A stretch of 43,889 nucleotides of DNA from a virus, in IMG/VR virus record IMGVR_UViG_3300036799_000028, positions 1 to 43,889 of that record; one strand, 5' to 3'. Both the position numbers and the translations under genes were made by a program. Below are positions 8,506-43,636 of the stretch, piece after piece. The notes beneath the pieces were generated by a model. That model was not told the origin of the DNA, did no database searches, and saw nothing but the letters and a program-made list of their open reading frames with translations. Position 1 is the stretch's first letter. Each line of letters starts with the position of its first letter.

Positions 8506-11500
8506 ATGACGCTCCCCGACACGCTGCCGGACGTTCCAGCTGAGGACTGGTTCCAGCACCAGGCGCAGCAGTTCCAGCAGCAGGCGCAGGCACAGATCGA
8601 CTCGCTGCACTCCGGTGCGGCCATGGACGCGATCCATGCTGCGCCGCCACTCCAGGCACTGCCGCAGCTGCCGACGGTCCAGCCGCCCCAGATCCAGCTG
8701 CCCCAGGTACAGGGACCGCCGAACCCGATCGACGCGATCTTCGGAGGCGGTGCGCCGGCAGCCCCCGCACCGGCGGCGCCGCCTCCGATAGCCCCCGCGC
8801 CAGCTGCGCCAGCGCCAGCTGCGCCAGCGCCGGTCGCGCCGACGGCCGCCCCTCCGTCGGCGCCTCCCGCGCCCACAGCTGCACCCGACCAGTCGTGGTT
8901 CGGCGATGCGCTCACCCACGTTGCCAACGCGGGTGGCGACGTGCAGCAGTTCGCCTCCGACCTGGGCAACCGTGTCGACCCGAGCGTGACCGACCCGGGC
9001 CAGATTTACGGTCATGCGCTGACCGCAGCTGCGAACTCTGGCGCGGACGTATCCCAGTTCGCCCAGAACTTCACCCCGCCACCACCGCCGCTGCCCGCCA
9101 ATCTGCCCGGCGCCGACCAGCTGAGCGCAATCTTCGACCAACCCGCTGCCAGCCAGGTGGCTGCCCGTTCGAGCGCCGGCCTGGGCACGGGCGAGATCAC
9201 CAGCGCCGGTGCGCCAGCTGGTGGGATCGACAACAGCAGCCGTGCCGCGTTCGCGCGCAGCTTCGCCCCCTACGCTGCCTACATCAGCCAGAAGACGGGC
9301 ATTGCGCCGGATCTGATCACGGCCATGTCCGGCTCCGAGTCGAACTTCGGCAACGCGCCCGGGAATGAGCTATTCGGCATCAAGGCGCTGCCTGGGCAGA
9401 AGTCGCAGAGTCTGGCCACTCACGAAGGCGAGTGGGGCGGCACGAACATGAATCAGGACTTCGCCGCCTATGACACGCCGCAGGAGTCGGCGGATGCCTA
9501 CATCAACCTGATCACCAAGCACTATCCGGGTGCGATGGGCGCGCAGACCGCCCAGGATCTGGCGCACGGTCTGAAGCAGGGCGGGTACTTCACCGCAAAC
9601 GAGCAGGAGTACGCCAACAGCCTGGCCGGCATCCAGAAGCAGGTCAGTGGGCCGGTTAGCGAAGCCCTGGGTGGCGGCGCGGGTGATGCCCCTGGCCAGG
9701 GCTACACCGTGCCGACCACTGTCGGCGAGGCGCAGCGCCAGGACTTCGGCCGACCGGTCGCGGTCGAAGAGCAGCGCCAGTTCGAGAACGAGGCGGGCCT
9801 GAGCGCCGGCGACGCCTACAGCGCCTGCGGCCCGGTGGCGGCAGCTGCCTTCGCCAAGACCTACGGGCGGAATCCAACGCCCGTCGAGGCGATGGATCTC
9901 GCCCGACAGGTCGGCTGGACGGGCAGCGCGGGCATGGCCGGGCCGGCGTCGGAGCAGGCGCTGCTCAACAGGATGGGCGTCTCGACGCACCTCACCCAGG
10001 GCGTCGACTGGGATCAGGTCAAGCAGGACGCCCAGAGCGGTAACCCGGTCATCATCAGCATGGCCGGTCACGGCGCCGGCCACTACGCCTATATCGACGG
10101 CTACGACCCGAACACGGGCGCCTTCCACGGTGGGGCTTCCACCGGGGCATCGCTCAAGGGCGGCCAGGAGTGGGTCACGCCCCAGGATCTCAGCCGCATG
10201 GGCTGGACGCCCCAGGTGGCGCTCTTCGCTGACAACCCGGCCACGCCGCACCCCAGCCCGGCCGCGTCCAACGCCCCGCCGAATGCCACCTTCACCAGCA
10301 GCACGATCAGCAACAAGGCGCAGCAGGTTGAGCAGGCGGTGCAGGACGTTGGCACCCAGGCGACCACTGGTGCCCAGAACCTGTTCGATCAGCTGAACCC
10401 GAACAAGCCGCCGGCGCCCAACCAGCCACCACCCGGTACGCCGCTCGCGCCGCAGGCTCCGCAGCAACCCGGCTTCACCCAGGGCAGCCAGCCACCGACG
10501 ACCCCTGGACTAGCTGATTCCACGTCAGCTAGTCCGCCGCCGCAGCCGCCGACCAACCCGCTGGATCAGTTCAAGCAGCAGATCGGCGACGCCTTCGCCA
10601 ACCTGCTCGGGCCGGTCGTGGGCGGCACGCAGCAAGCTGGTGGTGCGCTGGCCAGTAGCGGTGCCGGCCAGGCGGCGCAGGCGGCCGTCAATCAACTGAG
10701 TCAGCCACCAGTGAGGACCGGCACGCCTGCACCGCCTGACTACACGGTCCCGACGACGACCGCCGAGGCGCAGCGTCAGCAGACGCTCCAGCAGCAGGCA
10801 GCTGGGCCGACCAACGCGCCCAGCGGCGACGACGAGGCGACCTTCGCCGCGCTGCACCCCGACCAGGCGCTGACCGACGACCACGTCAGCGCGCTCCAGT
10901 CGATCGGCGCCGGTGCCAGCGCACTGGGCGCGACCGTCAGTAATCCGGCCCAGGCGTACCAGCGGCTCAGTGACACGGTCGACCAGGCGCTGGCGTCGAT
11001 CCCGCCCGATCGGCAGTCGACCGACTGGCAGAACATCAAGGCGCAGGCCGACACGATCAGCGCCCAGAACCCGGCCCAGGCGGTGCCGATCATCGGCAGC
11101 GTGATCAGCGACCTGGCCACCTCGGGCCAGCTGGCACCCCAGTCGGCGGTGGCCCTGTTCCACGACTTCCAGGCAGCCGAGAAGGCGCGCCAGGACGTGA
11201 TCGCCCAGAACAACCCGGTGCGCGACGAGCCGATCCTGGGCGGCCTGACCACGATGGGCGCCCAGATGGCGACCGATCCACTCACCTACCTGCCGGGGAT
11301 CGGCGAAGGCGCGGGTGCGCTGACCAGCGGCATCGGCAGCGACGTGCTGCGCGGTTTGGCCAAGTCGGCCCTGGAGGGCGGCCTCTATGGCGGCATCCAG
11401 GGCGCCGAGGATCCAGCCGCCACGCTTCAGGACTACCTGCTCAACGTCGGCGCCGGTGCCGGCCTGAACGTGGCTGGCCACGTCGCCGCGCCTCTCGCGC

Positions 11501-14500
11501 TGCGCGGTGGTCGGGCGCTGCTCGGCGGTGCTAGCGACCTGGGCAGTCGCGTGCTCAGCGAGCTAGGCGATCGCCTCGGCGGCATGGGGCTGGGCGAGCC
11601 GGAGACGGCTTACGCCAGCCAGGGCATGAGCAACCTGACGCCCCAGGTGGCCCAGGACTTTCTGGACTACGCCAAGCACCTTGGTGCCCAGACGCCGCCG
11701 CCGGCCGAGGACATCGCCCGTGCCGGCGTCGCCATCCGCGACCCTGGCTACGCGGCTGGCTCGCCCGAGCAGGCCGCCGAGGATCTGTTCAACCGCAACT
11801 CGGCCGCCCAGGGCAACGCCACGCGGCCAGCGGTCACCGCCCAGGATCTCCAGCAGCTGCCGGGCCTGGCTGGCGCCACGCGCAATGTCGATGATCTGCG
11901 CGCCGCCGTTGACGCGGGCAGGCCGTTCTCCGACTGGTACGGCCACTTTGCCAACTGGATGAAGGGCATGGTGGGCGAGGACAACACGCCCGAGGCGCTC
12001 TCGATCTTCGCGCATACCTCGCCCCGTAACCCGGTGCCGACCAACGCCGCCGCCGTGATCTCGCTCATGCGTGCCGCTCGCCAGACGGGACGTGATGGCA
12101 ACTGGGATCTGGAGGCGGTGCGCGACTTCTCGAACGCCTATCGCGATCCGGTCAGCGGCGAGATCAACCAGATCCAGAACTTCGGCCGCGATGGCGTGGC
12201 CAACAACCCGACCATGAAGGCGATCTGGGACATCGTCAGCGGCCAGGACAAGGCCCAGGCAAGCCGCGAGAACATCGGCAAGCTGATGCAGGGCTATCTG
12301 GACGGCACCGTCCAGCAGACCACGAACGCGAAGACCAGCAGCTACTACGAGAACCTGATCAACGCACTGGCGGGCGTGTACGACCCCTGGTCGACCAACG
12401 ACACATGGATGGGCCAGCTGTTCGGCCCGCTGGGCAGCTTCAAGGCCGACAACCCGGACTGGTATCGGTCCACCTATGGCGTGGTCAACCGCGTGGCGCG
12501 CGAGTTCGGCATGGCGCCCCGCGACGCCCAGGCAGCTGCCTGGACTTCGTTCCGCTCGCTCATGGAGCCGAAGGTGGCCAAGCCGGCCAATATCGCCGCG
12601 ATCGCGGATCAGGTTCGCAACGGCAACATGTCGATCGCTGACGGCATTCGAGCGGCCGACCAGGCGGGTTTCTATCGGGACATGGTCAACAGCGGCACCG
12701 AATGGTCGCAGGCCAACGACCTCCCGTCGGCGCTTCAGGAGGTGTATCAGAACCCCAAGTTCCAGCAGACACTGGCCAACCTGCACGCTTCGGGCATCGA
12801 CCTGAAATCACCTCCGCCCGAGGGCGCCATCAGCGATGTTCGCGTCGAACACGCGGGCCGTACTCGGGGTGGCGTGGCCGGTCGGACGGTGAGTCGCACC
12901 GCTGGTACGGGCGCCACCGAGATCGCGAGCGCGGCCGGGCCGAACATCCCGATCTCGGGCATGGGTGGCCTGGGCTACGACGCCGCCAGAGGTCGACTCG
13001 ACATCCTGGGGTCGATACCGCATGAGGTGGTGCCGTTCGGCGACGGCGCCACGGTGCGCCTGCCTGGCGGGAACGCCGATACCGCTCGAACGGTGGCGGC
13101 CACGATCGGCAACACGCTGCGCGAGCCGTCGATGACGATCCACTACCCGGACTCGTCGGTGCCAACGCGCGCCGGCCTGGCGCTGGAGAAGGCCGACGGC
13201 TCGGCCTACACCGCCGACGAGCTAACCCAACTGGGCCAGACCATGGCCGAGCACGGCCTGGTCGCACACCCGTCCTCGGATGGCACGACGATCCAGATTC
13301 CGCATACCGATGGCAGCGCGCGGAGCTTTCTGGACGGGGTGTTCAATGCCGCGTCCGACAGCGACATATCGAATAAAATAGGAGCCTACAGGGGTGACTA
13401 TGAAACCATCGCGCGAGCCGATTACGGACGCTTTGCTCAAGGAGTACGGGATCAAGGACTTGCCGCCGGACCATCCTATCTACAAGCAAGGCCCGGTCGT
13501 CGTGCTCCCCAGGGGGTCGGTGCAGCCGCCCAACGCGCCCTCTCAGACTTCTCCGGTTCCCAATCCGGATCAGCAGACCCCCGCCTAGCTCTGCGCCTGG
13601 GCGCAGGCGTCGGGTCGGGCCTGCTCACCTATTCCCAGACCGACCCGAACGACCCGATGCGCTGGCCGAAGGTGGCAGCTGCCACGCTCGGCGGCGCGGC
13701 TGCCCCCGACATCCTCGGTCGCGGCCTGGTTCGGGCGGGCTTCGGTGGCGTCGCCCACGACGTGGAAGCCGGCGCCGCCGCGATCGCTCGGGAAGCTGCC
13801 GATCGCGGCGTCGACCTGTCGAAGCCGGCCGAGACGACGCCCGCTGTTGAGACGGCCGCCGCCAAGATCCTCGATCACGTCGACCAGCGTGCGCCCGGCC
13901 TGGGCCAGAACTACGCCGACACGGCGCCCACCCACAAGGACGCGGTTGCCCAGCTGTCGAGCGACCTGAGCCGCTTCTCGAAGACGACCAGCGAGACGCC
14001 GAAGTTCACGGCCGACGGCAAGCCCAACAACCTGGCTGCCAACGACGTGGAGAGCGCCGGTAAGGCGCGTGCCAACCAGACGCGGCTGGCTAACGGCGAC
14101 ACGGTCCGCGTGCGCTCAGTGGACACGCTGGGCAAGCTGGACAACGCGACCGTGATCAGCCCCAACCCCAACGGGCGCGGCGTGTACGTCATGACGGACG
14201 CGGGCGAGCGCCGCTACGTCGCGACTGACGACGTGTACCCGAGCGCCCAGACCGCGCGGCGCCTGGCTGGCACGCCCACGGCGCCCACGCCGCCGCCGGT
14301 AACTGGCCAGCAGCCGATCAATATGACCGACGCCGAGCAGCTGGCGCGGCTGCGGCTGCAGCAGTTCCCCGAGCATCTGCGCCAGACGATCGGCGACGCC
14401 GCCCAGGACGTGGGCTGGGCCAATGCCAACCGCCGAGGCGTGATGCCGGACGCGGTCGTCGCGAACCAGGCCAAGCTGATCGCGGCGGACAAGTCCTTCA

Positions 14501-16827
14501 CCCAGATGCTCATGGATCGGCCGCCAGGCAGCGCGCTCAACGCCGAGCAGATGCTGGCCATGCAGAACGCGGTCGGCGGCACCGGCGCGCGCGTCTACGA
14601 CCTGGCGGCGAAGATCAACGGCGGCGATCGGTCGGACGCGACCATGGCCAACTTCCTGCACGAGGGCGATCGGCTGCGGCAGCTGGTGGCGGTGGCCGAG
14701 GGTGGTCGGGCCGAGATGGGGCGTGGGCTGCGGGTATTCCAGCAGAAGCCGCAGCTGATTGACCTGGCACCGGAGCAGGCGCTGGCCGAGATGACCAACA
14801 CCCTGGGCGGGCGGGAGAACCTGCTCAAGGCGGCCCAGGACTACGAGATGCTCCAGCGGGCGCAGACCAGCCCCGCCCAGCTAGCGGCGTTCTGGGGTGG
14901 CCTCCAGAAGGGGCCGCCGCGCGGCATCAAGGGCGTGGGTGAGTGGATCACCGCCCTCCGCTACTCAAGCATGATCTCGGGGCTGCCTACCGCCGAGCGG
15001 GTTGGCGTGGGTGGCGCTATCAACGCCGTCTACGGCCTGGCGCGCGATGGTGGCGTGTCGCTGGTGGGCGACACGATCCACGCCGCGAAGGGCGACATCC
15101 CGCTCACCAGCATTGGTCACAGCGGCTCGGCCATGTTCAAGGGCGCTGTCCTGGGCATGATCGACGGCTTCCACGGCTTCGGCCAGATCATGCGGCACGG
15201 CATCAGCGACTGGCGCGCCGGGCAGGGTGAGCTACCGGTCGACATCGCCAGCCGCCTGGGGCGTGAGAACGCGGCGGTGCGAGGCGCCGGTTATTCGCTG
15301 AGCTTCTTTGGCCGCACACACCAGGGGCTGAACGAGCTTGCCCAGCGCACCGCCTTCAACATGCGGCTCTACCAGCGGGCTGCCGAACTGGCGCAGTCGA
15401 AGGGCTATTTCGGCAAGACCGAGGGCGAGTTCATCGACAACTTCGTCAAGAACCCATCAGCACCCGGCTACCAGGCTGCCTTCCACGACGCTATGGAGTA
15501 CGGCCGCGTGGCGGCTAACCGTGGCGAATTGGGCAACCTGGGCCAGTTCATGCAGGGCGTGCGCCACATCCCGGTTGCGGGCCAGTTCATCCTGCCGTTC
15601 GCACGGGTGGCGTACGGCATCGGCTCGCGCATGGTCGACCTGACCCCGCTCGGCGCGGCCGGCACCGCCTTCGACATCGCCCGCACCGGTGGCCGCTACG
15701 CCCGCGCCACCTCGGTGGAAGATGTCGAAGGGCTGAAGACGATGACGGGCGGGCGGCTGAGCGGCGTGCGGCCGATCCAGCAGCGCCTGGCCGACAACCT
15801 GATCGGCTCGGCCATCTTCGGCGCCAGCATGTACGAGGCGCTCAACAGCAGCGAGAACGCCGACGGCAGCTGGTCGCCGAACCTGACCGGCGCTGGCCCG
15901 GATAGCCCGGCCGCGCGCGCGCAACTCGAGTCGACCGGCTGGCAGCCCTACTCGCTCAAGGTCGGCGGCCACTACGTGCCGATGCGCATGCTGGGCGCGT
16001 TCATGGGGCCGATGGGCATCGCCGCCGACATGGCCGAGGCGTACCGCTACGCGAAGCCCAAGGCGGGCGAGGACGCACCTTCCGCCGGCGACATAGCAGG
16101 CAACGCGGTCCACCGGCTGGGCCGCTTCGCGACCAACGAAACCTACCTGCAATCGATCGCGGACTCGCTCAACGCGGTGCAGGATCCGACCCGCTACGGC
16201 AGTACCTGGGCAACCAACCAGGCAAGCTCCTTCGTGCCGTTCGGCGCGGCCGGGCGCAGCGTGGAGCAGGTCACCGACCCGTACCAGCGGGCGACCAACC
16301 TGGGCAACCCGCTCATGCAGGCGGGTGAGCGCGCCGCGTCCAACATCCCTGGCCTGGCGGGCACGCTGCCGACGCGCAACGACGTGCTCGGGCGGCCGAT
16401 GAGGAACCAGTTTGGTGCTGGCTGGTTGCCGGCCAATATCAGTGCCGGTCAGCACGATCCGACGCTGGATGCGCTCGATGCGGCGGGCGTGACCGTGCCG
16501 CGAGTCGACCCCGTGGCCACGAGCCGCAACGGCGTGACCGGGGTGAAGCTGACTGAGGCCGAACAGCGCCAGGTGGAGCGCGAGCAGGGCCAGCTGATCC
16601 AGCAGTACGTGGGCACCATGCTGGAAAACCCCAACTTCCAGAGTTACTCGGCGGACCAGCGGGCGCAGCTGCTCCAGCACGCTGTTAGCGCCGCTCGCAG
16701 CCAGTCCCAGAACCAGGCGGTGGGCCGTGCCCTCCAGCAGGATCCCAACCGCCGCCTCCCCGCGCACAGGATCATGCCGACGGTCATTACCACGCCGCGC
16801 GTACCACTGCCGACGCCGAGCCGCTAG
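8506..16827 (+). CDS. Giant internal virion/ejection protein with two peptidoglycan-hydrolase-like domains
   Basis: A 2,773-aa polyprotein-like product. In order: a Gln/Pro/Ala-rich N-terminus (1-130); a glucosaminidase-like domain at about 243-385 with likely catalytic Glu278 in SGSESNFG; a C39/papain-like peptidase domain at about 404-575 with Cys441 (SACGPVAA) and His526 (GHYAYIDGYD); long Pro/Gln linkers; Gly/Ala-rich hydrophobic segments near 920-1000; a helical region at about 1140-1420 that resembles domains found in large phage polyvalent proteins; and a helical C-terminal half with hydrophobic stretches. Short-tailed phages carry large proteins that leave the head with the DNA and form a conduit through the cell wall. 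Two wall-cutting domains plus hydrophobic helices fit that job. A tail-tip lysin or tape-measure role cannot be excluded. The start at ATG 8506 follows the previous stop by 3 nt. Confidence 0.8.
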   Translation: MTLPDTLPDVPAEDWFQHQAQQFQQQAQAQIDSLHSGAAMDAIHAAPPLQALPQLPTVQPPQIQLPQVQGPPNPIDAIFGGGAPAAPAPAAPPPIAPAPAAPAPAAPAPVAPTAAPPSAPPAPTAAPDQSWFGDALTHVANAGGDVQQFASDLGNRVDPSVTDPGQIYGHALTAAANSGADVSQFAQNFTPPPPPLPANLPGADQLSAIFDQPAASQVAARSSAGLGTGEITSAGAPAGGIDNSSRAAFARSFAPYAAYISQKTGIAPDLITAMSGSESNFGNAPGNELFGIKALPGQKSQSLATHEGEWGGTNMNQDFAAYDTPQESADAYINLITKHYPGAMGAQTAQDLAHGLKQGGYFTANEQEYANSLAGIQKQVSGPVSEALGGGAGDAPGQGYTVPTTVGEAQRQDFGRPVAVEEQRQFENEAGLSAGDAYSACGPVAAAAFAKTYGRNPTPVEAMDLARQVGWTGSAGMAGPASEQALLNRMGVSTHLTQGVDWDQVKQDAQSGNPVIISMAGHGAGHYAYIDGYDPNTGAFHGGASTGASLKGGQEWVTPQDLSRMGWTPQVALFADNPATPHPSPAASNAPPNATFTSSTISNKAQQVEQAVQDVGTQATTGAQNLFDQLNPNKPPAPNQPPPGTPLAPQAPQQPGFTQGSQPPTTPGLADSTSASPPPQPPTNPLDQFKQQIGDAFANLLGPVVGGTQQAGGALASSGAGQAAQAAVNQLSQPPVRTGTPAPPDYTVPTTTAEAQRQQTLQQQAAGPTNAPSGDDEATFAALHPDQALTDDHVSALQSIGAGASALGATVSNPAQAYQRLSDTVDQALASIPPDRQSTDWQNIKAQADTISAQNPAQAVPIIGSVISDLATSGQLAPQSAVALFHDFQAAEKARQDVIAQNNPVRDEPILGGLTTMGAQMATDPLTYLPGIGEGAGALTSGIGSDVLRGLAKSALEGGLYGGIQGAEDPAATLQDYLLNVGAGAGLNVAGHVAAPLALRGGRALLGGASDLGSRVLSELGDRLGGMGLGEPETAYASQGMSNLTPQVAQDFLDYAKHLGAQTPPPAEDIARAGVAIRDPGYAAGSPEQAAEDLFNRNSAAQGNATRPAVTAQDLQQLPGLAGATRNVDDLRAAVDAGRPFSDWYGHFANWMKGMVGEDNTPEALSIFAHTSPRNPVPTNAAAVISLMRAARQTGRDGNWDLEAVRDFSNAYRDPVSGEINQIQNFGRDGVANNPTMKAIWDIVSGQDKAQASRENIGKLMQGYLDGTVQQTTNAKTSSYYENLINALAGVYDPWSTNDTWMGQLFGPLGSFKADNPDWYRSTYGVVNRVAREFGMAPRDAQAAAWTSFRSLMEPKVAKPANIAAIADQVRNGNMSIADGIRAADQAGFYRDMVNSGTEWSQANDLPSALQEVYQNPKFQQTLANLHASGIDLKSPPPEGAISDVRVEHAGRTRGGVAGRTVSRTAGTGATEIASAAGPNIPISGMGGLGYDAARGRLDILGSIPHEVVPFGDGATVRLPGGNADTARTVAATIGNTLREPSMTIHYPDSSVPTRAGLALEKADGSAYTADELTQLGQTMAEHGLVAHPSSDGTTIQIPHTDGSARSFLDGVFNAASDSDISNKIGAYRGDYETIARADYGRFAQGVRDQGLAAGPSYLQARPGRRAPQGVGAAAQRALSDFSGSQSGSADPRLALRLGAGVGSGLLTYSQTDPNDPMRWPKVAAATLGGAAAPDILGRGLVRAGFGGVAHDVEAGAAAIAREAADRGVDLSKPAETTPAVETAAAKILDHVDQRAPGLGQNYADTAPTHKDAVAQLSSDLSRFSKTTSETPKFTADGKPNNLAANDVESAGKARANQTRLANGDTVRVRSVDTLGKLDNATVISPNPNGRGVYVMTDAGERRYVATDDVYPSAQTARRLAGTPTAPTPPPVTGQQPINMTDAEQLARLRLQQFPEHLRQTIGDAAQDVGWANANRRGVMPDAVVANQAKLIAADKSFTQMLMDRPPGSALNAEQMLAMQNAVGGTGARVYDLAAKINGGDRSDATMANFLHEGDRLRQLVAVAEGGRAEMGRGLRVFQQKPQLIDLAPEQALAEMTNTLGGRENLLKAAQDYEMLQRAQTSPAQLAAFWGGLQKGPPRGIKGVGEWITALRYSSMISGLPTAERVGVGGAINAVYGLARDGGVSLVGDTIHAAKGDIPLTSIGHSGSAMFKGAVLGMIDGFHGFGQIMRHGISDWRAGQGELPVDIASRLGRENAAVRGAGYSLSFFGRTHQGLNELAQRTAFNMRLYQRAAELAQSKGYFGKTEGEFIDNFVKNPSAPGYQAAFHDAMEYGRVAANRGELGNLGQFMQGVRHIPVAGQFILPFARVAYGIGSRMVDLTPLGAAGTAFDIARTGGRYARATSVEDVEGLKTMTGGRLSGVRPIQQRLADNLIGSAIFGASMYEALNSSENADGSWSPNLTGAGPDSPAARAQLESTGWQPYSLKVGGHYVPMRMLGAFMGPMGIAADMAEAYRYAKPKAGEDAPSAGDIAGNAVHRLGRFATNETYLQSIADSLNAVQDPTRYGSTWATNQASSFVPFGAAGRSVEQVTDPYQRATNLGNPLMQAGERAASNIPGLAGTLPTRNDVLGRPMRNQFGAGWLPANISAGQHDPTLDALDAAGVTVPRVDPVATSRNGVTGVKLTEAEQRQVEREQGQLIQQYVGTMLENPNFQSYSADQRAQLLQHAVSAARSQSQNQAVGRALQQDPNRRLPAHRIMPTVITTPRVPLPTPSR
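10507..10535. repeat. Perfect 11-bp inverted repeat inside the giant gene
   Basis: GGACTAGCTGA (10507-10517) and TCAGCTAGTCC (10525-10535) pair perfectly around a 7-nt loop. It lies in the Pro-rich linker after the peptidase-like domain. It contains CTAG twice, a tetramer often rare in bacterial DNA. It has no U-run, so it is not a standard terminator. Confidence 0.7.
13400..13588 (+). CDS. Possible nested gene in the +1 frame of the giant gene
   Basis: A 62-codon frame fully inside the 2,773-aa gene, in the +1 phase. ATG 13400 has AGGGG 6 nt upstream, AGGAG further up and an unusually AT-rich patch (AATAAAATA at 13372-13380) before it; an in-frame GTG lies at 13394. The product starts with a normal-looking charged helix (ITDALLKEYGIKDLPPDHPIYKQGP) and ends in a Pro/Gln/Ser tail. 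Most out-of-frame ORFs here are Arg-rich shadows; this one is not. Reality is unproven, as the host frame also looks coding there. Confidence 0.35.
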   Translation: MKPSREPITDALLKEYGIKDLPPDHPIYKQGPVVVLPRGSVQPPNAPSQTSPVPNPDQQTPA

Positions 16828-28918: not shown

Positions 28919-29196
28919 CCAACGTATTGAGCCAGGCAGCCCTGCGCCGCCTGATGCGCCACCATGCGCGTCTGGAGGGTGCTCAGAGCGCGCTCCAGGC
29001 TGTTGACGGTGCCTACAAGGCCCTGGCGTCCAACTTCGAGGACGCGCTCCGCAGCGCGTGTGAGGACGCCTCGATCGACCTGCCGCCGCCTGGCGAGCAG
29101 GCCCAGATCCACGTCGACTGGAACACGGGTGATGTCAGCTGGCAGGCAGCTGCCCCCGAGTCGACGAACGGCCAGGTGCAGGAGGTGCCGACATGA
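28915..29196 (+). CDS. Small helical protein next to the fibre
   Basis: A 93-aa protein coupled by ATGA on both sides. It is mostly helical (AALRRLMRHHARLEGAQSALQAVDGAYKALASNFEDALRSACED), with an acidic end. Small helical proteins here often help fibre assembly. No domain is recognised. Confidence 0.65.
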   Translation: MTNVLSQAALRRLMRHHARLEGAQSALQAVDGAYKALASNFEDALRSACEDASIDLPPPGEQAQIHVDWNTGDVSWQAAAPESTNGQVQEVPT

Positions 29197-29429
29197 GTGG
29201 CAGCGCGATCGACCATGTGGTCTGGGGCGAGTACTGGACCGACACCGAGAACGGCATCTACCGCTACTGGCGCTCGCTCAAGGCGGCTGACCCGCCACAG
29301 TACCTGGGGCCGCCAGTCAGTGACGAGATCGAGGTGAGTCCAGGCGTGGTGCAGCGCGCCTTCGCCTCGGGCGCCGTGATCGAGTGGTCGGCTGACGGCG
29401 GCGCCAGCCTGGCGAACGACCCGCTATGA
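29193..29429 (+). CDS. Small protein with an LGFP-like repeat
   Basis: A 78-aa protein. The core reads YLGPPVSDEIEV..GVVQRAFASGAVIEW, which fits one LGFP-type repeat (GxPxxdE...G..QxFxxGxIxW), a unit found in cell-wall-associated actinobacterial proteins and phage lysins. It sits just before a C39-like peptidase and might target it to the wall. Coupled by ATGA on both sides. Confidence 0.6.
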   Translation: MSGSAIDHVVWGEYWTDTENGIYRYWRSLKAADPPQYLGPPVSDEIEVSPGVVQRAFASGAVIEWSADGGASLANDPL

Positions 29430-29989
29430 CCGCCTGGTGGACGCCGGTCTGGAAGCCGACGCCGCAGGAGCCGTATCCGCCCGATCCCGAGGAGCCGACC
29501 CAGGAGCTTGACTACAACACCTGGGAACCAGCCGTGATCCAGACATCCGACTGGACGTGCTCATGTGCCTCAAGTGCCTGGATTTTGAATGCCGTGGGCG
29601 ACTTCAGCCTCGGCCGTAAGTGGAACGAGTACGACGTGGTCAACGCGCTGCGCGCCGCCACCTACTACGGCGCCGTCGACCCCGCCTACGGGCTGGCCAG
29701 GGCGGACATGGCGGATCTGGAGACGATGTTCCGCAGCCTGGGCTACAGCGTGCTGCGGAAGCAGTACCTGAACCGCGATGACATCCTGCGCTGGTCAGGT
29801 GCCTTTCCGCTCCAGATGAACGGAGCCGCCTGGTATCACCACACCGGCGCGAGGACGATCGGCCCGGGCATCATCGAATTGGCCAACCCGGCGCCGAATT
29901 GGAAGGGCGTTGGTCAGCAGTTGGACGCTAACGAGGCAGCTGCCTGGGGCAGCTGGAACGGCATGGTGATCACGGGGAGGAGTGACTGA
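29426..29989 (+). CDS. C39/papain-like cysteine peptidase, candidate endolysin
   Basis: A 187-aa protein. After a Pro/Glu-rich N-terminus, SDWTCSCASSAWIL gives likely nucleophile Cys47 (Cys45 is the other candidate). His138/His139 in AAWYHHTGA and Asn154 in ELANPAPNW could complete the triad, with a WNGMVITGR end strand. It has no signal peptide, so export would need a holin; small membrane proteins follow immediately. The likely job is peptidoglycan cleavage at lysis, or it could process a virion protein. The substrate is unknown. Confidence 0.6.
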   Translation: MTAWWTPVWKPTPQEPYPPDPEEPTQELDYNTWEPAVIQTSDWTCSCASSAWILNAVGDFSLGRKWNEYDVVNALRAATYYGAVDPAYGLARADMADLETMFRSLGYSVLRKQYLNRDDILRWSGAFPLQMNGAAWYHHTGARTIGPGIIELANPAPNWKGVGQQLDANEAAAWGSWNGMVITGRSD

Positions 29990-30147
29990 TGGTGATCAGC
30001 GGCGTCCCGACCTGGGGCGGAACCGTAATCGGCGGGCTGATTGCGCTGCTCGCGCTGCTTATCGACATCGTGTTCATGGCAACGGGTCAAATCGACCTGA
30101 AGGTCGGGTTGCTGATCGGCGGCGTGGCGCTCTCGCGTCTGGTGTGA
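29989..30147 (+). CDS. Holin-like small membrane protein, 52 aa
   Basis: ATG 29989 is part of TGATG and has GGGGAGGAG upstream. The product has two hydrophobic segments (TVIGGLIALLALLIDIVFMA and VGLLIGGVALSRLV) with a short polar GQIDLK turn, the shape of a two-helix class II holin. It follows the peptidase gene, as expected for a lysis cassette. Its function as a pore is inferred from topology and place. Confidence 0.6.
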   Translation: MVISGVPTWGGTVIGGLIALLALLIDIVFMATGQIDLKVGLLIGGVALSRLV

Positions 30148-30236
30148 ACGAGTGGCAGGCGTGGGCGGCGTCGGTCTTTGTGATGGTCGGCCTGTTCGCC
30201 TTCCTGATCTACCTGCGCCTTCGTCGCGAACGCTGA
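30144..30236 (+). CDS. Single-pass membrane peptide, 30 aa
   Basis: GTG 30144 overlaps the previous stop (GTGA). The peptide is one transmembrane helix (WAASVFVMVGLFAFLIYL) followed by a basic RLRRER end. Very small, but coupled and well-formed: a typical inner-membrane anchor or antiholin-like partner. Its TGA overlaps a CTG of the next frame. Confidence 0.5.
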   Translation: MNEWQAWAASVFVMVGLFAFLIYLRLRRER

Positions 30237-30388
30237 CCTGCCTCGCCGACGAGCGGGGCCAGGATGTTGTTGAGTACGGGCTGCTGATCGCCACCGTCGC
30301 GATCGTGGTGCTGCTCGCGGTCACGGCCTTCGGCTGGCAGATCGAGGGCTGGTTCAGCCTTCTGGCCAGTCACATCACGACGACGTGA
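30152..30388 (+). CDS. Flp/type IVb prepilin-like protein in the lysis region
   Basis: The last about 50 residues match the Flp pilin pattern: a short charged leader (ADERG), then QDVVEYGLLIATVAIVVLLAV, with Glu5 and Tyr6 of the mature pilin and a prepilin-peptidase-type cut after Gly. A hydrophobic helix and a short tail WQIEGWFSLLASHITTT follow. The full open frame starts at GTG 30152 but its N-terminal part looks like shadow coding. A CTG at 30233, overlapping the previous TGA, would give a normal 51-aa prepilin. Which start is used is unknown. It sits among tiny membrane proteins after a lysin, so a holin-like role or interference with host Tad pili are both possible. Confidence 0.6.
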   Translation: MAGVGGVGLCDGRPVRLPDLPAPSSRTLTCLADERGQDVVEYGLLIATVAIVVLLAVTAFGWQIEGWFSLLASHITTT

Positions 30389-30596
30389 ACGGCGTGCCCT
30401 GGTGGGGGGTTCTGCTGGGGTTTCTGTCCGAGCATAGTCCGCCGTTCGTGGCGGGCTTCCTGGGTGGCGTCGTCGGATCGCAGGCAGCTGCCTGGGTAAA
30501 GCGCAAGCGGAGCAGCAAGTAGTAGACGGAGCAGGCGAGCCAGCCGAGCCCGAAGCCAGCCAGCAGCGAACCGATGACCACGAACGGGTCAGGCAT
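30375..30596 (-). CDS. Small membrane protein, antisense to the end of the late operon
   Basis: ATG 30596 overlaps the stop of the previous gene (TGATG). Residues 5-33 are a clear transmembrane segment (FVVIGSLLAGFGLGWLACSVYY) followed by LLLRLRF. From about residue 34 the tail is Pro/Thr/Asn-rich and is exactly opposite the rightward membrane gene at 30385-30522. The N-terminal half is the part I trust; the tail may be a by-product of the overlap. Confidence 0.5.
   Translation of the reverse strand: MPDPFVVIGSLLAGFGLGWLACSVYYLLLRLRFTQAAACDPTTPPRKPATNGGLCSDRNPSRTPHQGTPFTSS
30385..30522 (+). CDS. Small membrane protein, 45 aa, end of the late operon
   Basis: GTG 30385 overlaps the previous stop (GTGA). 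The product has a Gly-rich hydrophobic core (GVLLGFLSEHSPPFVAGFLGGVVGSQAAAW) and a basic end KRKRSSK. It is the last gene of the long rightward operon. It shares its whole length on the other strand with the 3' part of a leftward gene. A holin or anchor role is plausible. Confidence 0.45.
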   Translation: MNGVPWWGVLLGFLSEHSPPFVAGFLGGVVGSQAAAWVKRKRSSK

Positions 30597-30742
30597 CAGA
30601 TCAATCCGTATGTCTTCAGCAGCAGGTAGGTGACGACGGCGCCGATCGCGACCATGGCCAGGATGAACACGCCGCACGTCGCGCACCCCAGGCCCTGGTC
30701 GTAGTCGTCGTCGTACTGGCGACGGCGGTACGCCTGGGGCAC
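30596..30742 (-). CDS. Single-pass membrane protein, 48 aa
   Basis: GTG start at 30742. A Tyr/Arg/Asp-rich cytoplasmic part (AYRRRQYDDDYDQG) with CATC is followed by a hydrophobic helix (VFILAMVAIGAVVTYLLL). The stop overlaps the next ATG. The upstream frame stays open but lies inside the previous gene. No family is recognised; its pairing with another membrane protein suggests a small membrane complex. Confidence 0.5.
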   Translation of the reverse strand: MPQAYRRRQYDDDYDQGLGCATCGVFILAMVAIGAVVTYLLLKTYGLI

Positions 30743-30746
30743 ATGG

Positions 30747-30929
30747 TCATTGTCTTTGACGCGCCTCGTGCAGGAACCGCTGGGCCGCGCGGGCATCGAG
30801 CAGCTGCCCGAGGAGATCGACGAGCATGCGATCGGTCCCGGTGTTGCTCGCGATGATGGCCAGCAGCAGCTGCTGGATAACGGCGATCTCGACGGCGATC
30901 TCGTCGAGGGCCTCGTCGACTGGCGTCAC
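30747..30929 (-). CDS. Small helical protein, 60 aa
   Basis: GTG 30929 overlaps the previous stop as GTGA. The product is helical with Leu/Ile heptads (VDEALDEIAVEIAVIQQLLLAIIAS...MLVDLLGQLLDARAAQRFLHEA). It could form a coiled coil or lie on the membrane. The function is unknown. Confidence 0.6.
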   Translation of the reverse strand: MTPVDEALDEIAVEIAVIQQLLLAIIASNTGTDRMLVDLLGQLLDARAAQRFLHEARQRQ

Positions 30930-32241: not shown

Positions 32242-32383
32242 TGGATCTGCACTCCTCACGTCCTAGTGTCCACCGTCGACTCCCCAGCCCTGGGCGGATC
32301 ACCTCGGAGGATACGCCACTCGCTCGGGGCCGCATCACCGCGAATGCACGTTTTTTCAAAAGAGGGCAACGTAGGATGTGCGG
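32242..32383. promoter_or_regulatory. Divergent intergenic region with AT-rich motif
   Basis: It separates the leftward ParB-like gene from the rightward lysogeny block. ACGTTTTTTCAAAA lies at 32348-32361, a motif that recurs near 34640 and 35330. TAGGAT at 32372-32377 would be a -10 box ending 6 nt before ATG 32384, a leaderless-type layout. The motif sits at the -35 place of that promoter, so it may be an operator or an activator site. Confidence 0.5.
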
Positions 32384-32674
32384 ATGGCAAGTAAGACAAT
32401 CGCTGATCTTTTCATGGATGACATCATCGAACAGGTGACAGGGCGTGTCCTGGCACGCCTGGCCGTGAGCCAGCCGGTCGTGGCCAGCCAGCCCCAGGTC
32501 GACACGCTGCGCCTGGACGAGGCGGCTGACCTCATCCGCCTGAGCGAGCGCGAGCTACGCCGACGGATCGCGTCAGGGGAACTGCGGAGTATAAAGGTGG
32601 GCCGCGCACGGCTGATCCCCCGTGCGGCCCTGGCCGAGTTTCTGGAGAACTTCGAGCACAACGGCACTCGATGA
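32384..32674 (+). CDS. Excisionase-like HTH DNA-binding protein
   Basis: A 96-aa protein. Residues 42-90 form a MerR/excisionase-type winged helix: LRLDEAADLIRLSERELRRRIASGELRSIKVGRARLIPRAALAEFL. Such proteins act as recombination directionality factors beside integrases, or as small transcription regulators. The N-terminal 40 residues are helical and may oligomerise. It begins two genes before the integrase. ATG 32384 is 6 nt after a possible -10 box, and a GTG six nt upstream is in frame. An excision partner to the serine integrase is the best guess. Confidence 0.75.
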   Translation: MASKTIADLFMDDIIEQVTGRVLARLAVSQPVVASQPQVDTLRLDEAADLIRLSERELRRRIASGELRSIKVGRARLIPRAALAEFLENFEHNGTR

Positions 32675-32919: not shown

Positions 32920-32960
32920 CCTGCTGATCTCGTAACGCTATTGTGCTACGGACATAGGCG

Positions 32961-32987
32961 TGGACACGCTCATGCTCCAGCTACAAT
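32961..32987 (+). promoter_or_regulatory. Integrase promoter, leaderless type
   Basis: TGGACA (32961-32966), a 15-nt gap and TACAAT (32982-32987) are followed by 7 nt and the integrase ATG at 32995. RNA would start at or next to the A of the ATG, so the message would be leaderless. No ribosome site is present, which supports this. The 15-nt gap is shorter than usual. Confidence 0.6.
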
Positions 32988-32994
32988 ACAGGGC

Positions 32995-34449
32995 ATGGCA
33001 CGTTCTTCCGCTGCGGCCACTGCCGCCAAGCCAAGATTCACCCCCGCTCGCCGACGCGCCGTCGGCATCATCCGCGTCTCCGAGGTCGACGGTCGCTCGG
33101 GCGAGGCGTTCCGCAGCCCAGGCGACCAGCTGGGCATCCTTGAGCGCCACTGCGCCAGCCGCTCGTACAGCCTGGTCGCGTCGTTCCAAGAACTCGATGT
33201 CTCGGGCTACACCATTCAGGAGCTTCACAAGCGCAAGCTTGGCCTGGCCCCTGCGGTCGCCATGATCGAGGCGGGCGAGGCTGATGTCATCCTGCTCCCA
33301 TGGCTCGATCGCATCGCGCGCAACTTGCAGCTGTATCGCGCCGTCGTCAAGAAGGTCCGAGCAGCTGGCGGCACGATCGAGGCGGTCGACTTCGGCGAGG
33401 TCACCGGCGGCAGCGCCGCCCAGCGGTTCAGCGCCGAGACCCTCATTCGCGTCGCGGAGTTCTTCGCTGAGTTGACCGCCGAGAAGACCAACGCGGCGCA
33501 GGAGAAGGCGATCGCCGAGGGCATCCCGACCTTCGCCAACATCCCGATCGGTTACCGCTCCGACGACTCGCGCCGCCTGGAAGTCGTCGAGGAAGAGGCG
33601 GCGCTTGTGCGAACCGCCTACGAGATGCGCGAGATCGGCACTCCGCTCGAAGACATCCGCGACTGGCTGCACGCGCAACCAGCTGCCCAGGCATGGATGG
33701 CGGCGCACAAGCGCAAGCTGGGCATTCGTGGCGTGCAGAACCTGCTCAAGCAGCGCATGTACCTGGGCGAGCTTCACTTCGGCAAGATGAGCAACCTGCG
33801 CTCGCATGAGCCGATCATCGACCCGGCGCTGTTCCGCACCGTCCAGGGCATGCGTATCAAACGCGACACAAAGCGTGAGCCGTCCGACCGCCTGCTGGCT
33901 CGGCTCGGCATCGTCCGTTGCGCTACCTGCGACAAGGCGATGGTGGTCGGTGGCCAGTGGCATGAGAACGCGGCCGGCGAACGGGTCCACTACCCCGACT
34001 ACCGCTGCTCCAGCATGCAGACCTGCACCCGGCGCGCCTACGTGAGCGCCGAGGTGCTCGAAGAGGCAGTGGTCAGGTTCGTGCGGACGGCACACGGCGA
34101 AGGCAACGCCTCAGCCGACGAAGAACTCGCCCAGGCCGAGCGTGCGTTTCAGGAAGCCGAGCAGCAGCTGAGCACGTTCATCACGCTGCTCGCTGGCGTG
34201 GGCGACCTGGCTGCCACCCAGGCCAAGCTCGAAGAGATGAAGGCGGCACGCGAGACTGCCTTCGAGCACTGGCAGTCGCTACGGGTGCTCAGCGGTACGA
34301 GCAACATCCGCGCGTCGGCCTGGGACGACCTGAGCCTATCGGGGCGTCGTGCCCTGATCCGCGCCACGGTCAAGCGGGTGGTCATCACGCGCGGCGCCCG
34401 TGGCACGCACCAGGCGAGCCGGATCACGATCGAGCCGTTCGCGCAGTAG
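32995..34449 (+). CDS. int: Large serine integrase
   Basis: A 484-aa site-specific recombinase. The resolvase-type catalytic domain covers about 22-165, with nucleophile Ser29 in IIRVSEVDG, the LDRIARN motif and the SAETLIRVAEFFAELTAEKTNAAQ long E-helix. A recombinase DNA-binding domain follows (PIGYRS..LEVVEEEAALVRTAYEMRE.. GIRGVQNLLKQRMYLG). Next comes a zinc ribbon (CATC and CSSMQTC), then a coiled coil (EELAQAERAFQEAEQQLSTF) that gates direction. It would join attP to attB with no host factor. It is at the usual size. ATG 32995 is chosen because a promoter lies right before it. No att site could be identified from one sequence. Confidence 0.93.
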   Translation: MARSSAAATAAKPRFTPARRRAVGIIRVSEVDGRSGEAFRSPGDQLGILERHCASRSYSLVASFQELDVSGYTIQELHKRKLGLAPAVAMIEAGEADVILLPWLDRIARNLQLYRAVVKKVRAAGGTIEAVDFGEVTGGSAAQRFSAETLIRVAEFFAELTAEKTNAAQEKAIAEGIPTFANIPIGYRSDDSRRLEVVEEEAALVRTAYEMREIGTPLEDIRDWLHAQPAAQAWMAAHKRKLGIRGVQNLLKQRMYLGELHFGKMSNLRSHEPIIDPALFRTVQGMRIKRDTKREPSDRLLARLGIVRCATCDKAMVVGGQWHENAAGERVHYPDYRCSSMQTCTRRAYVSAEVLEEAVVRFVRTAHGEGNASADEELAQAERAFQEAEQQLSTFITLLAGVGDLAATQAKLEEMKAARETAFEHWQSLRVLSGTSNIRASAWDDLSLSGRRALIRATVKRVVITRGARGTHQASRITIEPFAQ

Positions 34450-42778: not shown

Positions 42779-43636
42779 TCAGGAATCCTTCTTGGGGTAG
42801 GGCAGCTGCCCGAAGCCGAGCGAGACGCTGCGGCGCTGGCGGCGATCGCCCAGGGCGAACTGGTAGCGGTGGTTGCCGGGGTGGCGGGTGCTGGTGCAGC
42901 CAGCCTCGGTGCGAGCGCGGCGCCAGTAGTCCAGGCCAGACTCGCGACGGCGGCGTGGGCTGGCGCCGAAGCTGCGGAGCACTTCCTCGGAGTACTCGTG
43001 GCCCTGCTTCTGCTGGCGGATCTTGCCGATCTCCTGCTCGTTGAAGACCCGGCCGGTGGGCAGGTGCCAGATGGTCCGGCCGTCGGCGCGGCCGGTGTAG
43101 GTGGCGTTGCTGGCCTGGTAGATCGTGCCGATGTGGCCAGGCATGGTCTGGTTGCCCTGGGCGTCGAAGCGAGCGACCGGGTCGCTGTGGCTGACGATGC
43201 CCCGGAAGCCCAGGGCAGCTGCCTGGCGGAACGCCTCGGCCAGGAACCACGACTCGGCATTGGCTGGCACCTCGTCGGTCAGCACGAAGCGGCCGAGTTC
43301 GGCGCTCTCGCGGTACGGCACCAGCTTCGGGAACGCCTTGAGCAGCACCCGCTCGAAGCCAGCGTTGGTGAGGCTGGCGATGCCGACCAGCTGCTCGCCC
43401 AGGTACAGGCCGAAGTTGGCCAGGTAGCCACCGGCCTTGCCGGCGTAGTGGTGGCGAGCGGTGAACGCGATCGCGACCGGCTGGGTGATGGACGCCACCT
43501 CGAACAGGCGGCTGTTGAAGCCACCCTCCGAGATGTGTCGCCAGGACTGCTGGCGGTTCGTGTGCCGCTGGCAGTAGTCAGAGGCGGGCGAGAGGAACGA
43601 GGCGGTCTTGCCGGTCGCGATCGAGGCGGTGGTCAT
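42779..43636 (-). CDS. Mom-like adenine-modification protein (GNAT fold)
   Basis: A 285-aa protein. RHHYAGKAGGY (61-71), LVGIASLTNAGF, AELGRFVLTDEVPANAESWFLAEAFRQA (113-140), GFRGIVSHSDP and HIGTIYQASNATYTGR (168-183) follow the order of GNAT-like Mom proteins from actinophages. The Mu Mom protein turns adenine in phage DNA to a carbamoylmethyl form that stops many restriction enzymes. The C-terminal third (FNEQEIGKIRQQKQGHEY.. HPGNHRYQFALG) is typical of this subgroup. The likely job is protecting phage DNA on entry. Coupled (ATGA) to the gene before it. Confidence 0.75.
   Translation of the reverse strand: MTTASIATGKTASFLSPASDYCQRHTNRQQSWRHISEGGFNSRLFEVASITQPVAIAFTARHHYAGKAGGYLANFGLYLGEQLVGIASLTNAGFERVLLKAFPKLVPYRESAELGRFVLTDEVPANAESWFLAEAFRQAAALGFRGIVSHSDPVARFDAQGNQTMPGHIGTIYQASNATYTGRADGRTIWHLPTGRVFNEQEIGKIRQQKQGHEYSEEVLRSFGASPRRRRESGLDYWRRARTEAGCTSTRHPGNHRYQFALGDRRQRRSVSLGFGQLPYPKKDS

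Follow-up and report, generated by a model that had tools for sequence, protein, structure and literature searches.

A Flp/Tad-type pilin homologue encoded in the lysis cassette of a phage probably infecting soil Chloroflexota

The IMG/VR virus record IMGVR_UViG_3300036799_000028 was analysed over its whole length of 43,889 bases (hereafter the window), and sequence comparison confirmed that positions 30233–30388 on the forward strand encode a homologue of Flp/Tad-type pilins rather than a chance match. This pilin is best explained as derived from the major Flp pilin of the Tad system of a Chloroflexota host. With regard to function, the chances appear about evenly balanced that the product is an accessory pilin mimic, which would engage the host Tad machinery and jam, cap or alter its pili, leading to superinfection exclusion or receptor masking.

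The pilin frame and its start codon

Counted from a CTG at 30233, the pilin frame comprises 51 codons. Positions 30257–30310 encode GQDVVEYGLLIATVAIVV, in frame with the stop codon at 30386–30388; the Gly(-1) codon occupies 30257–30259, and the mature part, QDVVEYGLL..., begins at 30260. The prepilin peptidase site containing Gly(-1), G/QDVVEY, is present in the window copy and in its counterparts in phages L002 and L003, and the same motif supplies Glu5 and Tyr6 of the mature window pilin.

The original prediction of a Flp (type IVb) pilin, for which a profile search against the Flp/Fap family had been proposed, is upheld by matches to Pfam and to solved pilins and by the constraint on the frame. 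The frame matched Pfam Flp_Fap (PF04964) with an E-value of 9.1e-7 and 29.0 bits against a cut-off of 32.2, and a six-frame search of the record gave 1.2e-7. In the tad locus of G046, one of the two nearest Chloroflexota genomes, cellular Flps score 31.0–32.3 bits against this model; some cellular members of the nearest clade, among them one adjoining an A24 peptidase (G046 C30, 31.0 bits), also fall slightly below the cut-off, so the shortfall of the phage frame is largely a property of the clade. Using phmmer, the window pilin was matched to the solved Tad pilins 8U1K (Caulobacter, E-value 6e-4) and 8U2B with E-values of 6e-4 to 9e-4. The frame is kept without stops in L002 (88% identity) and L003 (62%) and is under purifying selection, with dN/dS values of 0.15, 0.26 and 0.34 for the three pairs formed by the window, L002 and L003; no alternative frame among the remaining five combines an open reading with similar constraint throughout these comparisons. 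AlphaFold modelled the window pilin as a single helix over residues 2–50 (pLDDT 88), in agreement with the single helix of 40–50 residues that characterizes mature Flp/Fap pilins. A Foldseek search of this lone helix against the PDB returned zero matches, which is uninformative, and a PHROG search with the pilin also returned none.

The pilin frame is free of ATG, GTG and TTG codons from 30164 up to the Gly codon at 30257. The nearest conventional in-frame starts, GTG 30161 and GTG 30152, would produce leaders of 33–36 residues, and this reading was rejected because the stretch is conserved mainly as the frame of the upstream gene, TM2. The start initially listed for the gene, GTG 30152, was accordingly abandoned: it falls within this 30-aa membrane gene, and the resulting leader of 36 residues would be atypical. 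The same prediction had named a CTG overlapping the previous TGA as the best-sized start, and this codon (30233–30235) is retained as the probable start, the CTGA overlap being conserved in L002 at 4171. Initiation at the CTG would give a leader of nine residues in the window copy and of seven in L002, while the L003 pilin has a GTG start and a ten-residue leader. The last leader residues of the phage proteins (CLADERG and LIRDEDG) resemble those of host Flps (FLSDESG and FIHDEDG). Translation from CTG 30233 by termination-reinitiation is, on the sequence, the most likely if unproven mode of expression.

The lysis/membrane cassette and the phage record

The pilin gene belongs to a run of small forward-strand genes at 29193–30522, encoding an LGFP-like protein, a peptidase, TM1, TM2, the pilin-like protein and P45. 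Stop/start overlaps occur at 29987 (TGATG), 30144 (GTGA), 30233 (CTGA) and 30385 (GTGA), in line with the membrane cassette originally described, in which two tiny membrane proteins follow a peptidase. Upstream of the peptidase gene, positions 29193–29429 encode a 78-aa LGFP-repeat-like protein (Pfam LGFP E-value 7e-4, 20.4 bits, below the cut-off of 22), which is conserved in L002, L005, L006 and L025.

The peptidase (29426–29989) had been called C39-like, a designation that holds for its fold and not for its Pfam profile: no Pfam family was matched, C39 included, and the AlphaFold model (pLDDT 84) retrieved with Foldseek the C39 domains of PCAT1 and ComA, with E-values to 1e-5, together with the pseudomurein endoisopeptidase PeiR. 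The protein displays a Cys-His-Asn triad on a C39 fold, formed by C45, H138 and N154, all invariant across 38 homologues. Based on these invariant residues and the structural matches, the enzyme is likely an endolysin.

TM1 (29989–30147), a small membrane protein of 52 aa and a candidate holin, adjoins the peptidase gene in 54 of the 70 homologous loci with at least 1 kb of downstream sequence. The 30-aa single-TM protein TM2 (30144–30236), whose gene overlaps that of TM1 through GTGA, is present in L002, L003 and L039, the last of which carries no pilin gene. P45 (30385–30522), a glycine-rich membrane protein of 45 aa, has its own GTGA overlap with the pilin gene; all 44 residues aligned with its L002 counterpart are identical and the two genes differ by 10 synonymous changes, and P45-like proteins recur in other cassettes. 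Most cassettes of this kind have no pilin, and the pilin and TM2 genes are accessory members. A 157-aa gene lies between the peptidase and TM1 genes in L002 (L002:3463-3936) and is not at that place in the window. Among the phage isolates of INPHARED, no match was found with the C39 protein, nor with the window pilin, a Flp consensus or the L098 pilin, although low-complexity filtering may hide short hydrophobic proteins in such searches.

The record also encodes terminase, major capsid, tail-fibre and large internal-virion-like proteins. As it carries a serine integrase gene (32941–34449, forward strand) together with an excisionase-like gene (32378–32674), the phage is probably temperate. 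Neither a T2SSE ATPase (PF00437) nor an A24 peptidase (PF01478) was matched in the record, so the phage cannot assemble a pilus on its own.

Several further features of the window were recorded. A 66-aa single-TM protein encoded on the reverse strand at 30596–30796, convergent with the lysis cassette, has a similarly placed counterpart in L002 with 72% identity. The 2773-aa protein encoded at 8506–16827 contains an endolysin-like segment at residues about 240–380 and an internal-virion-protein match close to its C-terminus. A Mom-like DNA modification gene (PHROG 1384, E-value 9e-30) occupies 42779–43636 on the reverse strand. The palindrome GGCAGCTGCC occurs 13 times (at 9840, 12531, 13674, 16953, 22038, 29145, 29935, 30483, 30986, 36849, 37497, 42801 and 43214) versus 0.33 expected, a count that none of 100 shuffles reached, and GCAGCTGC is present in 31 copies. 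This is an iterated palindrome like HIP1 of cyanobacteria, specific to the phage or to its true host; it is nearly missing from all close phage relatives and Chloroflexota contigs examined.

Cellular relatives, other phage carriers and leader length

A cellular search covering one genome per species across 84,980 species yielded relatives above 60% identity at only three loci, located in two soil Chloroflexota metagenome-assembled genomes (MAGs), with 66–71% identity to the window pilin. Two of the three are tad loci: L012 comprises two Flps, an A24 prepilin peptidase, TadE, a TadG-like protein, CpaB, a TadZ-like protein, TadA and two TadB/C-like genes, and L014 comprises two Flps and an A24 peptidase. 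The third, L013, is a lone cellular Flp adjoining metabolic genes. Flp genes were present in 74 of 151 sampled Chloroflexota genomes, and three sampled genomes of the phylum contain homologues of the major capsid protein with 34–45% identity. From the pilin's own relatives and these moderate capsid homologues, the host is probably a soil Chloroflexota. C39-like matches in Chloroflexota genomes were rejected as proof of such prophages, since TM1 and the pilin are absent nearby. One soil Chloroflexota MAG, G045 (containing L012, L013, L116 and L118), has at least five Flp-type genes; several lie outside the tad locus, and one has PEPCK and malate/lactate dehydrogenase-like genes as neighbours.

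Among 2.9 million viral contigs of IMG/VR, eleven including the window were found to carry the pilin gene, so the similar phage neighbourhoods on which the original prediction also depended do exist. Six of the eleven copies (window, L002, L003, L070, L076 and L132) lie inside the lysis cassette, where they are mostly joined to their neighbours by stop/start overlaps. L025 and L026 represent the same pilin on two contigs, on the opposite strand and about 2 kb from the peptidase; in L025 the pilin-like MRRRGQSLVEYALLLAAV... (L025:10562-10708, reverse strand) is followed by an overlapping 79-aa gene, on the strand opposite to the lysis cassette. In L098, L107 and L130 the pilin is a separate gene with no peptidase cassette detected nearby, and the L098 gene is alone on its strand, both neighbours being on the opposite one. 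Three further loci, L009, L010 and L011, carry ordinary Flps on contigs called viral and were left out of the count because the viral nature of these contigs is doubtful; the PHROG matches in L011 were limited to one endolysin-like protein and some of unknown function.

By eye, the hexamer TATAGT was seen exactly 8 nt before the start codon in both L098 and L130. It would suggest a dedicated promoter suited to a leaderless message, a sign that is weak alone; TATAGT-N8-ATG also occurs at other loci, namely L009/L102 (one contig) and L127. Promoter consensus scans of the window (sigma-70 consensus) and of L098 found nothing, and a hairpin after the L098 gene was rejected as its terminator because the T-run is on the other strand.

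The phage copies differ in leader length: none in L070 and L076, four residues in L107, five in L098 and L025, six in L130, seven in L002 (CTG), about eight in L132 (TTG, uncertain), nine in the window (CTG) and ten in L003. In 48 sampled cellular Flps, one of which is L011 from a contig called viral, the median is 11 residues to the nearest start of any kind and 13 to the nearest ATG, with a minimum of six. The L070 and L076 versions begin at the mature N-terminus (MATVEYG...), and an in-frame stop just upstream excludes a longer leader in L070. Residue -1 is Gly in the window, L002, L003, L025 and L130, Ala in L098 and L107, and Thr in L132. Processing by the host prepilin peptidase, as originally proposed, is consequently plausible for the window copy with its Gly at -1 but does not stand as a general requirement, given two leaderless copies and three others without Gly at this position. 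Val4-Glu5-Tyr6, on the other hand, is invariant across nine phage proteins, the most diverged of which shares 33% identity with the window copy. The corresponding residues of the Caulobacter prepilin, Glu19 and Tyr20, belong to the hydrogen-bond core holding the Tad pilus filament (PMC11067988).

Proposed pilus interference and alternative explanations

Phages are known to use Tad pili as receptors (PMC11067988), and some shut out other phages by blocking the assembly of pili (reviewed in PMC11436027). Among the functions originally proposed, interference with Tad pili is favoured by the invariant Glu5-Tyr6 pair and the solitary genes outside lysis cassettes, and a pinholin is weakened by the near-universal TM1 already in the cassette. 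Termination-reinitiation after the preceding membrane gene would yield modest amounts of the pilin, which would insert into the inner membrane as one helix, its leader cleaved or not. Through its Glu5-Tyr6 end it might then dock to Flp subunits of the host or to the TadB/TadC platform, and the protein would be built into the Tad pilus, cap it or block it. The phage could benefit through loss or change of the pilus receptor, exclusion of competitors, or progeny being kept off the dying cell. The invariant Glu5-Tyr6 pair points to pilin or platform proteins as contact partners, and loss of the leader in some phages argues that normal processing is not required. As the gene occupies a presumably late lysis cassette in six phages including the window, exclusion in the lysogen would need a separate promoter. 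A bolder version, which we advance tentatively and consider possible though below even chances, is that counterfeit Tad pilins form a family in phages of Chloroflexota, with a leader that is progressively lost, and would poison or cap the pilus machinery without the host prepilin peptidase, thereby achieving superinfection exclusion by pilin mimicry.

Recruitment of a pilin helix to lysis, as a pinholin-like or holin-regulating single-TM protein acting with the C39 endolysin, TM1, TM2 and P45, is unlikely judging from gene context. The six cassette copies with their overlaps would fit such a role, as would the leaderless L070 and L076 versions, which would be simple membrane helices. However, TM1 already fills the holin-like slot, the pilin is missing from most cassettes, and a generic holin would not be expected to conserve Glu5-Tyr6 where its helix begins; the solitary L098, L107 and L130 copies, away from any detected peptidase cassette, further argue against a purely lytic role.

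It is similarly improbable that the pilin is a lysogenic-conversion gene, which would give the Tad pilus of the host a working variant of its subunit and alter adhesion or receptor specificity in the host's favour instead of blocking assembly. The window, L002 and L003 pilins retain Gly(-1), the end of the leader and a C-terminus like that of the host (WF..LA..IT.T), so processing and co-assembly would be feasible for them; an integrase is present, and Flp genes in Vibrio harveyi prophages have been interpreted in this way (PMC12482185). Nevertheless, other phage copies have leaders of 4–8 residues or none, the window copy lacks a conventional start near the leader, strong expression would be desirable for a protein with a major structural role, and a late-cassette position does not suggest expression in the lysogen.

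A frameshift fusion, in which the upstream membrane protein and the pilin region would form the two halves of one product, was rejected as very improbable: the pilin frame of the window, L002 and L003 is offset by -1 from that of TM2, across which it stays open, but any NTGA overlap gives a -1 frame, no slippery site is shared, the L132 pilin lies at +1 to TM1, a stop in frame immediately precedes the L070 pilin, and the L098, L107, L025 and L130 genes are free-standing with ATG or GTG starts. The odd start codon and eroded leader could also mark a captured host gene that has lost its function and lies in the cassette by chance, an equally remote explanation given an open frame with dN/dS of 0.15–0.34 over three phages and repeated occurrence in diverged phages.

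Compared with cellular Flp/Fap (type IVb, Tad; PF04964) pilins such as Caulobacter PilA (8U1K) and the L012 Flps, the window pilin has the same mature size, single helix, G/QDVVEYG junction and Glu5-Tyr6, and it is 66–71% identical to Chloroflexota Flps, with the WF..LA..IT.T tail in common. Unlike them, it is encoded by a phage in a lysis cassette without Tad machinery and has a short, probably CTG-started leader, and in further phage versions Gly(-1) or the leader as a whole is missing. Lambda-type morons such as bor are likewise accessory genes near lysis genes, sometimes with their own promoter; bor resembles the window pilin in this placement, while protein and target are unrelated.

Carriage of Flp by phages is already known, since the Vibrio harveyi prophages phi345 and phiGAN1709, tailed like the window phage, carry Flp-type pilin genes; the Flp, with 40.8% identity to V. 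vulnificus Flp, was reported as similar to a known virulence factor (PMC12482185). Their host belongs to another phylum, and the available text of that report does not describe lysis-cassette placement, leader reduction or recurrence (PMC12482185). In the open-licence literature, we found no description of lysis-cassette placement, repeated leader loss or an origin from Chloroflexota tad loci. Small accessory proteins of Pseudomonas phages, D3112 Gp05 and DMS3 Aqs1, stop pilus assembly and exclude other phages by inactivating the assembly ATPase PilB (PMC11436027), whereas the window protein would be a pilin mimic acting on a Tad system.

Known pilus-directed phage exclusion proteins target assembly enzymes, pilin expression or the receptor itself (PMC11436027). 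If the proposed role is true, a phage-made pilin mimic, including its leaderless forms, would represent a different exclusion strategy and a natural inhibitor for probing the role of the leader and of Glu5-Tyr6 in Tad assembly. It would also provide one of the few functional leads on the phages of soil Chloroflexota.
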